Source: Sphingobacteriales bacterium
GTDB taxonomy: Bacteria; Bacteroidota; Bacteroidia; Sphingobacteriales; Sphingobacteriaceae
Length of the DNA: 33,468 nt
Direction of reading: 5' to 3'
Assembly (NCBI GenBank): GCA_004293485.1
Contig: RDYW01000052.1
Location: 1 to 33,468 of the forward strand
Shown here: piece by piece, positions 21,540-33,180 of the stretch
Layout: the number at the start of each line of letters is the position of its first letter
Numbering within the stretch: position 1 is the stretch's first letter
The notes under the pieces: model-generated
The model's input: only the letters and a program-made list of their open reading frames with translations
The model's database searches: none
Told to the model about the DNA's origin: nothing
Translations under genes and position numbers: made by a program

Positions 21540-22919
21540 ATGAAAAATATTACCACTATACTATTAATAAGCATGGCTATAATTACATCGTGTAAACGCG
21601 ATGAAGGTATAAGTATTAACCCCGAAATTAAACTTAATTTTTCTACCGATTCGATATTATTTGATACTGTTTTTACCACCATAGGTAGCACAGCAAGAAG
21701 CATTAAAGTTTTTAACGTATCAAAAGTAAATATCGAAATTAGCAATATCAGGTTGGTAGGAGGCGTAAATTCGCCTTTTAAAATAAATATAAATGGCCTT
21801 TCACAATCATCAGTTAACAATATTAGGGTAGATGCTAAAGATTCTATCTATGTGTTTATAAAAGCCGTTATCAACCCTACGTTGGCTACTACCCCTTTTT
21901 TAGTACAAGATACATTAGAATTTTTAACTAACGGAAATTTACAAAAAATACCTTTAGTAGCTTATGGGCAAAATGCCGTTTATTTTAATGCAAAAACTAT
22001 AAATGAGGATTTTACTTTTAAAAAAGGGATTCCTTACCTTATATATAAACATTTAAAAATAGCACAAAATGCAAAGGTAAATATAGCACCTGGGGCTAAA
22101 TTATATTTCCATAGCAATGCCCAAATGATGGTTTATGGCACATTACAAGCAAACGGTAGTATTAAAGATAGCATTACTTTTTGTAGCGATAGAACCGAAA
22201 GAATATACCGAGACGAACCAGGCCAGTGGAAAGGTGTTTACATTGGCCAAACAAGTAAAAACAATAACTTTAATTACTGCACTATAAAAAATTCGATTGT
22301 AGGTGTGCAGGTCGATTCGCTTAGTACTAACACAAACCCCAAATTAATCGTCACTAATTGCATTATCAAAAACCATACGCTTGCAGGTATAATGGCCTAT
22401 AATACGCAAATAGTTGCTATTAATAACTTATTATTTAACTGTGGCAAGTACCTCGTGTTAGGGTTATATGGCGGAAGTTATCTTTTTTATCACAATACTT
22501 TGGATAATAGCAATGCAAGTTTTGGTAGGCAAACGCCTTCTGTTTTCTTTAGCGATAATACCGAAGATGGTAGTTTACGTTTTAATAATTTTGAATTACA
22601 GTGCATAAACAATATAATTTGGGGAAATGCGGATAACGAATTTTTAGTAAACAATAAGGGTACAAAACCTTTTATTAGCTCTATAAAATCAAACCTTTTA
22701 AAAGCAACTAAAAATTATGGCGAGAGTAATATTTTAAATACCGACCCATTTTTTTTAGATGCTAAAAAAGATAATTATTTGCTAACTGGCAACAGTCCAG
22801 CTTTAAATATAGGCACCGATTTATCGTTAAGCCCCTACTTTAATACATTTATTAAAGTAGATTTAAAAAACATTCCTCGAACGTTTCCTTCTGATGTAGG
22901 TTGCTACGAAATAAAATAG
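21540..22919 (+). CDS. lipoprotein with right-handed beta-helix domain
   Basis: A 459-aa lipoprotein of no known function. The signal peptide ends in a lipobox (IITSC, lipidated Cys18), so it is anchored to a membrane, probably the outer one. Residues about 30-145 look like a beta-sandwich domain (STDSILFDTVFTTIG is a recurring Bacteroidota start). From about 160 the sequence shows parallel beta-helix repeats (FNYCTIKNSIVGVQ, LIVTNCIIKNH, INNLLFNCGKYL), ending in a DLKNIPRTFPSDVGCYE tail common in choice-of-anchor/pectate-lyase-like proteins. No catalytic residues can be identified. It lies 12 bases after comF and is the last gene of the rlmN operon. Confidence 0.8.
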   Translation: MKNITTILLISMAIITSCKRDEGISINPEIKLNFSTDSILFDTVFTTIGSTARSIKVFNVSKVNIEISNIRLVGGVNSPFKININGLSQSSVNNIRVDAKDSIYVFIKAVINPTLATTPFLVQDTLEFLTNGNLQKIPLVAYGQNAVYFNAKTINEDFTFKKGIPYLIYKHLKIAQNAKVNIAPGAKLYFHSNAQMMVYGTLQANGSIKDSITFCSDRTERIYRDEPGQWKGVYIGQTSKNNNFNYCTIKNSIVGVQVDSLSTNTNPKLIVTNCIIKNHTLAGIMAYNTQIVAINNLLFNCGKYLVLGLYGGSYLFYHNTLDNSNASFGRQTPSVFFSDNTEDGSLRFNNFELQCINNIIWGNADNEFLVNNKGTKPFISSIKSNLLKATKNYGESNILNTDPFFLDAKKDNYLLTGNSPALNIGTDLSLSPYFNTFIKVDLKNIPRTFPSDVGCYEIK

Positions 22920-23365: not shown

Positions 23366-23515
23366 ATGCTTAGTTACATTAAACCAGTTATCCAAAAAGT
23401 TAATTTATTACAGCCCGATGAGCAAAACACGGCAGCGCTAGTGCTTGGTAATATTGCATTTATTGCCATATTACTTTCTGTTACGGTATCTTTATTTTTA
23501 ATTAAATTTTTATAG
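23366..23515 (+). CDS. small single-pass membrane protein (49 aa)
   Basis: A short open frame of 50 codons: ATG at 23366, stop TAG at 23513-23515. It encodes a mildly polar N-terminus (MLSYIKPVIQKVNLLQPDEQ) followed by a run of about 27 hydrophobic residues (about 23-49, including LGNIAFIAILLSVT and VSLFLIKF). The helix runs to the C-terminus, so the expected form is one transmembrane segment with a short cytoplasmic head. I do not recognise it. Support comes from an A-rich leader typical of the phylum, a good open frame in an AT-rich region, and a strong terminator hairpin 18 bases after the stop. A chance frame cannot be ruled out. Confidence 0.55.
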   Translation: MLSYIKPVIQKVNLLQPDEQNTAALVLGNIAFIAILLSVTVSLFLIKFL

Positions 23516-23532: not shown

Positions 23533-23575
23533 TAAAAGGCGAGGAAATTTTAGTAAGCATTTTCTTCGCCTTTTA
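23533..23575. terminator. bidirectional terminator hairpin
   Basis: TAAAAGGCGAGGAAA (23533-23547) pairs with TTTCTTCGCCTTTTA (23561-23575): 15 bp with one G-T wobble, 13-base loop. A-tract on one side and T-tract on the other allow it to work on both strands. On the plus strand it follows the 49-aa gene; on the minus strand it overlaps the last codons of the glycosylphosphotransferase. Confidence 0.75.
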
Positions 23576-24959
23576 AAATGTTAAAAACCGTCATAAAAAT
23601 TATTTTAATATCAAGCATAACCGACCATTTTTCGGTATAGCTTATATCGTATTTTACTCGTTCTTCCATTTGTGAGGTTTCAGTTGTTTCACCTCTGCAT
23701 CCATTAACTTGTGCCCAACCTGTAATGCCTGGTTTCACAAAATTTCTAACCATATATTTGTCAATTATTTCGCGGTATTGATGGTTTAGTTCGGGTACGT
23801 GTGGGCGTGGGCCTACCACACTCATCGAACCTAATAACACGTTAAAAAACTGTGGTATTTCATCTAAGCTTGTGGCCCTTAGAAACTTGCCCACCCTTGT
23901 AATTCTATCATCGTTTTTTGAAGCTTGCTTAAAAGTACTGGCTTTATCTGTTATTTTCATCGACCTAAATTTGAATATTTTAAAGGTTTGGTTGCCTCTA
24001 CCAGCTCGGTTTTGCATAAAAAAAACAGGCCCTTTCGAGTCTAATTTTATCAATAAGGCAATAATAGGTACTAACCACGATAATATAAAAACAGTAACTA
24101 AAAGAGAAAAACCTGTGTCTAATAATCGTTTTTTAAACCTAGCTTGTATATCATCTAAAGGTTCTTTTCTGAGCGTAATAACCGGAAAGCCCTCAAGGTA
24201 GGATATATTAAAAGGAGTTTCAATGGTTCCTAAAAAATCGGGCACAAATTTTAAACGAATACATTGTTTTTCGGCTTCTAATAATAAATATTTTGCATCA
24301 TGCATACGTTTAGGTGTTAACGATACATAAACATCTTTAACACCTAATTGCGAGGCTTTTTTAAACTGTTCGATAGTTAAATTCTCGATTTTACCTTTAC
24401 TATCAAAAAACAAAGAACTTGCATCGTTTGGCTCGTCTAAAAAACCAAAAAACTTAAAGTTTCGGCTGTTCGAAAAAAAATCGCTCAATTTATTACCTGT
24501 GGCATTGTTGCCTAATATGGCTACAGGTATCCCTATGCCGTATTGTCGGGTAAATAGCATTTCGAATAAAGAACCAAAAAACCTACTTAAAAACAAAAAA
24601 AATGCCAGTAAACAATAAAATATAATTAAAAACTCGCGTGATAAAAAAGTGTCGTTGGTAAAGGTTAAATAAAGCAAAAAAACAAAAATATTAAGTACCA
24701 AACTGCGCCAAGTTACACTTAAAATAGTCTCTATTGTTTTAACCATATCAATATGGTACATACGGTAAACACTCGAACTTACTATCCAAATTAAATTTAC
24801 CAGCACTAAATATTTTTGATATGATAATGGATTTAATGATTTTCCTAAAAATTCAATAATATAAAAACTACTAAAAAAGGCAATATTTAGTAGCAATAAA
24901 TCGGTTATTGATAATATAATGCGTAATAAAAATATGTAACGAGTTTGCGTATAAGGCAT
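23550..24959 (-). CDS. polyprenyl glycosylphosphotransferase (WcaJ/WbaP type)
   Basis: A 469-aa inner-membrane enzyme that transfers a sugar-1-phosphate to undecaprenyl phosphate, the first step of exopolysaccharide assembly. N-terminal membrane segments (about residues 8-135), a Rossmann-like domain (about 143-265, beginning IPVAILGNNATG), a fifth membrane helix (about 283-304), then the catalytic domain with GPVFFMQNRAGRG, KFRSM (330-334), the D366-E367 dyad in SLDEIPQ and GPRPHVPE (383-390), ending KPGITGWAQV. This layout is that of undecaprenyl-phosphate glucose phosphotransferases. It is separate from the 4960-14654 locus but would prime the same or a related polymer. Which sugar is added is unknown. 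Confidence 0.94.
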   Translation of the reverse strand: MPYTQTRYIFLLRIILSITDLLLLNIAFFSSFYIIEFLGKSLNPLSYQKYLVLVNLIWIVSSSVYRMYHIDMVKTIETILSVTWRSLVLNIFVFLLYLTFTNDTFLSREFLIIFYCLLAFFLFLSRFFGSLFEMLFTRQYGIGIPVAILGNNATGNKLSDFFSNSRNFKFFGFLDEPNDASSLFFDSKGKIENLTIEQFKKASQLGVKDVYVSLTPKRMHDAKYLLLEAEKQCIRLKFVPDFLGTIETPFNISYLEGFPVITLRKEPLDDIQARFKKRLLDTGFSLLVTVFILSWLVPIIALLIKLDSKGPVFFMQNRAGRGNQTFKIFKFRSMKITDKASTFKQASKNDDRITRVGKFLRATSLDEIPQFFNVLLGSMSVVGPRPHVPELNHQYREIIDKYMVRNFVKPGITGWAQVNGCRGETTETSQMEERVKYDISYTEKWSVMLDIKIIFMTVFNILKGEENAY

Positions 24960-24992: not shown

Positions 24993-25161
24993 AATATAAT
25001 TAAACAAATTATTATACAACATTAGGCTAGCCTACACAATAAATTTATTTTAAAAAATAGCATTAATTTTGTTAATTATACCTTAAATTATGCATAAAAT
25101 GAATGTGTATTAACTTATTTTCAAAATTGTGTTGCGTAAATTTATATAATCGATATTTTTT

Positions 25162-25256
25162 TAGCCCCGATTGCAGTGGAAATCAATTTTGCTTGCACTG
25201 TTTTGCTTGGTTTACACTAAAGATTATTGCAAAATTATTGCAACGTAAAGCGGGAA
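25162..25256. repeat. structured repeat element, copy A
   Basis: The segment has two imperfectly inverted arms, CCCCGATTGCAGTGGAAATC on the left and TTGCAACGTAAAGCGGG on the right, joined by a perfect inner stem AATTTTGC (25185-25192)/GCAAAATT (25229-25236). The left arm matches copy B near 33076 at 14 of 16 positions (GATTGCAGTGGAAATC versus GATAGCAGTGAAAATC), and the right arms also match (TTGCAACGTAAAGC versus TTGTAACGCATAGC). It lies between the glycosylphosphotransferase and the chrA remnant. A 62-codon frame across it is not credible. Confidence 0.6.
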
Positions 25257-25338
25257 AAGCTTCAAAAAAAAATTTATATCCCTTATATTAATATCTTAAC
25301 TAAGGCAGCGGCTAAATTAATATTGGGTTATTGTATTT

Positions 25339-32908: not shown

Positions 32909-33072
32909 TTGAGCGATAAAGCCGAGTGCTTGCTTTTTGTGATTTGGGATGAAAAGCTTTTTTGTGCAATTTTTACGTTAAAAAAATGTGTTTTGATAAA
33001 AATTTAGGGTGGAGTATTAAAGCCTTAATTTTATAATTGGGCGGGATGGTAAATTGTACTGTTATTTTGCGT

Positions 33073-33180
33073 GAGGGATAGCAGTGAAAATCCTTTTTGT
33101 GAGGTACGAACAAAAAGATTGTAACGCATAGCCCGACCCTGAGCAGGGCATTTGGGTGCTTGGGCAAAGGGACACGCCCT
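33073..33180. repeat. structured repeat element, copy B
   Basis: Related to copy A at 25162. Left arm GGGATAGCAGTGAAAATC, inner stem CTTTTTGT (33093-33100)/ACAAAAAG (33110-33117) with a 9-base loop, right arm GATTGTAACGCATAGCCC. It is followed by GC-rich short hairpins: CCCT/AGGG at 33137-33148 and AGGG/CCCT at 33168-33180. I recall similar sequences between genes in other Bacteroidota genomes, but cannot check this. Open frames of 60-65 codons across it (for example 32973-33167 minus) are not credible genes. Confidence 0.6.

Follow-up and report, generated by a model that had tools for sequence, protein, structure and literature searches.

Here, we describe a gene for a tiny membrane protein in a 33,468-nucleotide (nt) stretch of Sphingobacteriales DNA (contig RDYW01000052.1 of assembly GCA_004293485.1; henceforth, the window, meaning the whole stretch that was analyzed), and its relationship with the adjacent gene, which encodes a polyprenyl glycosylphosphotransferase (PHPT). 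Judged from sequence comparison, the 49-residue frame is a real protein gene under purifying selection, and its product is a member of a divergent family whose genes are associated with a single PHPT subclade, next to which they occur in two gene arrangements. We consider it somewhat probable that the small protein functions as an accessory subunit of this neighboring large phosphoglycosyl transferase. The original prediction had raised the possibility of a small partner of a membrane enzyme, and this idea is strengthened by the presence of family members at 10 of 97 PHPT places, in two arrangements, and next to one gene fusion; the physical partnership itself is what these associations suggest. 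The gene, its helix, and the proposed partner lie in the window as follows:

23366–23515, + strand: gene for the small membrane protein, 49 amino acids (aa), ATG to TAG; orthologues in three other genomes of the genus, with a ratio of nonsynonymous to synonymous substitution rates (dN/dS) of 0.11–0.41
23435–23509, + strand: C-terminal hydrophobic helix, residues 24–48; the motif LVLGNI corresponds to residues 25–30 (23438–23455), with L25 and N29 shared by all 11 members
23550–24959, − strand: PHPT with PF02397 and PF13727, convergent, the proposed partner; orthologues at 75–88% identity in the same three genomes of the genus

Conservation of the small gene within its genus

The frame proved to be as originally described, with an ATG at 23366, a stop codon ending at 23515, and a translation, MLSYIKPVIQKVNLLQPDEQNTAALVLGNIAFIAILLSVTVSLFLIKFL, in which a polar head is followed by one hydrophobic stretch that reaches the C-terminus. 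AlphaFold models of four sequences contain helices at residues 5–14 and 17–48 (mean predicted local distance difference test score, pLDDT, 82.8). The genus of the window (g1) is represented by 18 genomes, including the window's own, and three further ones encode the small protein at 80, 79, and 52% identity, so that it is carried by 4 of the 18 (G000, G004, G006, and G016). Frame +1 contains no stop codon in any of the four, with 1–7 stops in every other frame, and dN/dS lies within the above range across all six pairs. None of 2000 column shuffles produced as few amino-acid differences as the small gene, which shows a third-position bias, and the DNA of the open reading frame (ORF) in the three other genomes is 78, 76, and 67% identical to that of the window, compared to 52, 46, and 38% for the 100 alignment columns before it. 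Together, the conserved frame, the lack of stops, the low dN/dS, and the shuffles identify the small frame as a real gene. Non-conservation, in-frame stops, or frameshifts in relatives had been named in advance as grounds for abandoning the gene; the check was made and the gene passed it, with its position next to the glycosylphosphotransferase kept in all four carrier genomes along with the third-position bias.

The convergent downstream neighbor matches PF02397 (E = 5e-67) and PF13727 (E = 4.9e-07), both past the cutoff, which makes it a large PHPT, i.e., a phosphoglycosyl transferase, and 34 nt separate the stop codons of the two genes. On the opposite side lies a lipoprotein-like ORF of 459 aa without a Pfam match, and both neighbors are thus of the kinds originally reported:

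21540–22919, + strand: upstream lipoprotein-like gene, a context marker regarded as separate from the pair; present in 18 of 18 genomes of the genus

The order of the lipoprotein gene, the small gene, and the convergent PHPT gene is identical in all four carriers (in G016, the lipoprotein gene is represented on that contig by its 3′ end alone). The lipoprotein gene is also found in the genomes that have neither the small gene nor the PHPT gene, and the 1.5-kb flank downstream of it in the 14 other g1 genomes contains no such small gene and no PHPT gene. Within the genus, PHPT relatives at 75–88% identity occur only in the three other genomes that also have the small gene. Thus, the two genes are both present (4) or both absent (14) at this locus, which implies that they were gained, or lost, there together.

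In its own genome (2.2 Mb in 89 contigs), the small gene is single-copy, with no second credible match found, and a search of plasmid records yielded no match either. A scan for Bacteroidota-type promoters detected nothing consistent upstream of the gene in the four genomes. Neither Pfam nor NCBIfam cutoffs were reached by any of the 11 family members, and no SecE model was among the Pfam/NCBIfam matches up to E = 10 for the four g1 members. A profile search of the PDB gave three fragments of FliG, none with an E value better than 0.47.

Association with one clade of PHPTs

The 10 PHPT places with a member comprise four in g1 and six elsewhere. In seven cases, the small gene is convergent and follows the PHPT gene (the four from g1, G086, G060, and G208), and in three, it is co-directional and precedes it (G029, G073, and G028). 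In a tree of 42 PHPTs, all four from g1 are carriers, as are six of the ten that make up one clade (support 100/99), with none found among the other 28. The carrier state requires 3 changes on this tree, compared to a mean of 9.2 for shuffled states, none of 500 shuffles being as low, and a topology that unites g1 and these ten PHPTs cannot be rejected (p-AU 0.099).

We define the family as PHPT-linked small membrane proteins of ~40–65 aa with a polar head, a C-terminal helix, and the motif L-[IV]-x-[GA]-N, encoded within 300 bp of a PHPT gene or of a PHPT-type membrane region; the window protein has this size and layout, carries the motif at the start of its helix, and lies within this distance of its PHPT. 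L25 and N29 are the invariant residues of the 11-member alignment, and the heads of eight members are 22–31 residues long, with a net charge of 0 to +3. The 328 loci examined contain 75 distinct short frames that have a C-terminal helix; when each lineage is held out in turn, the 11 members all outscore the 64 non-members, with held-out scores for g1 of 8.3–14.2 against 2.8 for the best background frame. In an earlier held-out run, two background tails reached or passed several members; both belonged to the genes of G073 and G028, which were later counted as members.

A profile of the four g1 members, searched at E ≤ 0.01, matched 8 of 301 genomes of the family (4 of them g1) and 4 of 395 genomes of the class (one being the window's own); the other matches and, in three g1 genomes, frames antisense to mutL were dismissed as chance, being parts of larger proteins or lying in broken or other reading frames. 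Because the profile search gave nothing credible, the flanks of related PHPT genes were read instead. At E ≤ 1e-110, PHPTs were detected in 84 of the 301 family genomes (101 matches), and 97 of these, 4 from g1 and 93 others, were read on both flanks, leaving out the four lowest-ranked ones (in G019, G082, G217, and G298); 5 of the 97 flanks start ahead of the true stop codon owing to a premature end of the match, and some are truncated by the end of a contig.

In the 3′ flanks, position and helix alone pointed to a convergent small ORF in G086 (47 aa), G060 (51 aa), and G208 (41 aa), with 15, 8, and 119 bases, respectively, between the stop codons. The shared motif was noticed only after this selection and reads ALILGNL, ALIIANL, and YLILANL versus ALVLGNI in the window. 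Convergent ORFs of 35–70 aa with a C-terminal helix within the first 280 nt occur in 3 of the 93 flanks from outside g1, all three with the motif, versus a mean of 0.055 and a maximum of 2, never with the motif, in 200 dinucleotide shuffles of the same flanks. The flank controls gave none on the same strand in the first 280 nt and no convergent helix ORFs at offsets 300 and 600; at offset 600, same-strand helix ORFs were present in 3 of 91 flanks, none of them with the motif. In Smith-Waterman comparisons among the proteins of G086, G060, and G208, 7, 13, and 42 of 2000 shuffles scored as well.

The remaining four members (G732, G029, G073, and G028) were located with the motif or a profile. 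A scan of 268 loci (968 kb) yielded one further motif-bearing ORF, that of G029 (64 aa, ~150 bp before its PHPT gene), which was also the only one of 20 background ORFs with the motif in a first count and itself stands beside a PHPT gene. A position-specific score added G073 and G028, with proteins of 52 aa each encoded ~215 and ~260 bp before the respective PHPT genes. Between these two genes, 32 of 46 differences fall at third codon positions and 25 changed codons are synonymous versus 10 others (dN 0.13, dS saturated), and this third-position bias indicates a second lineage under purifying selection. A six-member profile searched in 149 g15 genomes gave matches in 64 at E ≤ 0.5; among the 49 distinct places (50 loci) inspected of the 80-odd listed, a PHPT-like frame was present only at G208 itself and at G732, the locus of the latter being counted under two labels (L231 and L268). 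G732 encodes a 50-aa ORF (contig positions 707–859; E = 0.041 with the six-member profile) that is located 290 bp before a co-directional 287-aa ORF (L268, 1150–2013), the N-terminal part of which matches the PHPT model with 98.6 bits (97.5 with the N-terminal model alone), whereas its later part is Alg14-like; a Glyco_tran_28_C gene comes after this apparent fusion. The fused membrane region scores best against the PHPTs of G073, G028, G086, G029, and G208, all carriers, and it is from this resemblance and from the intact layout that the G732 locus derives its weight.

Two other observations were made in the PHPT flanks. A different convergent small membrane ORF abuts the PHPT gene in G023 (L118, at the start of the 3′ flank), coding for 40 aa with the helix first and an acidic tail last, and an ORF in the 3′ flank of the G070 PHPT gene (L132) appears similar to it, as judged by eye. 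In addition, G119:C270 and G258:C1 each contain a pair of closely spaced PHPT genes.

The intergenic hairpin and alternative explanations

23533–23575, no strand assigned: hairpin between the convergent genes, arms 23533–23547 and 23561–23575; right arm inside the PHPT gene; not conserved in G006 and G016

The small gene had been credited with a strong terminator of its own. The hairpin does exist and starts 18 bases past the stop codon, with a folding energy of −19.2 kcal/mol (z = −3.57) on the + strand and −14.4 kcal/mol (z = −2.51) on the − strand, but it is not the small gene's own because its right arm falls within the last codons of the PHPT gene (KGEENAY), the stop codon of which is located in the loop. 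GCC is followed by only four T on the + strand, and the T-rich run of the − strand is longer; a simple terminator scan, covering loops of 3–8 only, reported none. The long stem is predicted on the + strand in G000 (−19.2) and G004 (−15.6) and is missing from the other two genomes, G006 (−4.5) and G016 (−9.8, a different fold). The hairpin is, at best, a shared, species-level terminator. Elsewhere in the window, two matches to the Rfam Flavo-1 RNA exceed the gathering score, both on the + strand: 25159–25261 (56.6 bits), just past the 5′ end of the PHPT gene, and 33064–33142 (59.5 bits); no paper was found in a literature search on the name Flavo-1.

Several results weigh against a partnership with PHPT. 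No member was found at 87 of the 97 PHPT places, so that this kind of enzyme does not generally need the small protein, and even in the carrier clade, 4 of 10 lack it; gaps of 8–260 bp and opposite strands imply that most pairs do not form one operon. In pairwise comparisons, the g1 proteins are not significantly similar to those of G086, G060, and G208 (64–952 of 2000 shuffles as good), and once the motif columns are removed, from 0 to 63 of 66 background tails match the members, with little signal left except for G029, so that kinship rests mostly on the motif region. For G732, G029, G073, and G028, which were found with motif or profile, the motif is partly there by construction, and PHPT genes are abundant in the loci that were scanned. 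There is also an appreciable likelihood (0.2–0.3, a rough estimate) that one of the ~48 match places lies close to a PHPT by coincidence. Finally, outside g1 and the G073/G028 pair, every lineage is a single genome; searches in their own genera found the G086 member in 1 of 3 genomes and the G060 member in 1 of 20, each finding only itself.

In an alternative that we consider unlikely but worth taking seriously, this is a real protein of polysaccharide loci that has either another partner, for example, by anchoring a soluble regulator in the manner of BcsF, or a general membrane role, and it is found near PHPT through joint inheritance or transfer. Such a history would agree with the 87 PHPTs for which no member was found and with the joint presence or absence of the g1 genes at one place, as a single insertion would give, but it sits uneasily with a nearness that is kept while the order changes from after and convergent to before and co-directional, and with the G732 member, kept beside the membrane region alone. 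It is quite improbable that the transcript matters rather than the peptide, with a convergent RNA overlapping the PHPT 3′ end and controlling the gene or ending its transcription: the convergent layout and, in G000 and G004, a hairpin that extends into the 3′ end of the PHPT gene would fit, but the amino-acid sequence is conserved with a third-position bias, G006 and G016 lack the hairpin, and four members precede the enzyme gene rather than follow it. The size of the protein, its hydrophobic C-terminal helix, and the location of the gene in its own intergenic region are reminiscent of a small toxin of the type I toxin-antitoxin kind, a very improbable identity given the single copy with no second credible match in the genome, the slow vertical conservation at a fixed position in four genomes, and the link to one enzyme clade. 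As for a chance open frame, only the short length and the A+T-rich DNA speak for it, and this practically negligible option is refuted by the conserved, stop-free frame, the third-position bias, and the outcome of the 2000 shuffles. A partner of the PHPT membrane region is the best reading of the small protein, because it stays beside one PHPT subclade despite changes of gene order and adjoins, in G732, a protein that keeps only that membrane region.

A putative small subunit of PHPT

We propose that the small protein spans the inner membrane once, its polar N-terminal head probably facing the cytoplasm, and that the C-terminal helix, with its conserved Asn, would dock on the N-terminal transmembrane bundle of PHPT. 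Such docking might help the assembly, dimerization, or regulation of the enzyme at the first step of polysaccharide synthesis, with the short helix possibly filling or bridging the membrane stalk. Another idea, that the small helix is a copy of the N-terminal membrane region of PHPT, was dropped, as 33–960 of 1000 shuffles were as good.

Small single-span subunits, such as CydX, KdpF, and AcrZ, stabilize or tune larger membrane enzymes and pumps. The protein described here resembles them as a tiny membrane protein but would have a different partner, and such families are not among its Pfam/NCBIfam matches. BcsF is described as a single-pass polypeptide of the cellulose secretion system of E. 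coli (PMC11470070); like the window protein, it is very small and crosses the inner membrane once, and it serves a membrane polysaccharide machine. However, the helix of BcsF is N-terminal, followed by a cytosolic C-terminal tail, and its gene lies in the bcs cluster, whereas here the head comes first, the helix last, and the neighbors are not bcs genes; the partner enzyme is also different, and no Pfam/NCBIfam link was found. A closer parallel as to the enzyme is EpsW, a soluble single-domain response regulator that reportedly activates the large monotopic transferase EpsZ and is thought to promote its dimer (PMC12802240). What the two would have in common is that a protein separate from the enzyme drives an initiating transferase of this type toward its active dimer, but EpsW is soluble and its action on the enzyme has been shown, whereas a membrane helix would act here. 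As far as the available text of the WbaP structure paper goes, this enzyme is a dimer, the membrane stalks of which leave a large void, 'presumably occupied by phospholipid', and the membrane bundle appears without a protein partner (PMC10942596). A full-text literature search returned no title or abstract on a small membrane partner of the PHPT kind, subscription papers being mostly outside its scope, so that this is not proof of absence.

More broadly, we tentatively suggest, as a plausible although not yet a favored scenario, that an undescribed family of tiny proteins in Sphingobacteriales-type bacteria comprises accessory subunits of PHPT, in which the helix would recognize the membrane bundle and control dimer assembly or activity, and which would have been carried over to the bundle fusion. 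The search itself offers a lesson: the profile of the g1 members missed the relatives that were found by reading the flanks of one enzyme across genera. The EpsW report (PMC12802240) treats as unsolved the way in which bacteria control the step that initiates exopolysaccharide synthesis. If our proposal is correct, a small membrane subunit would represent a new control point and provide a handle on the role of the bundle.
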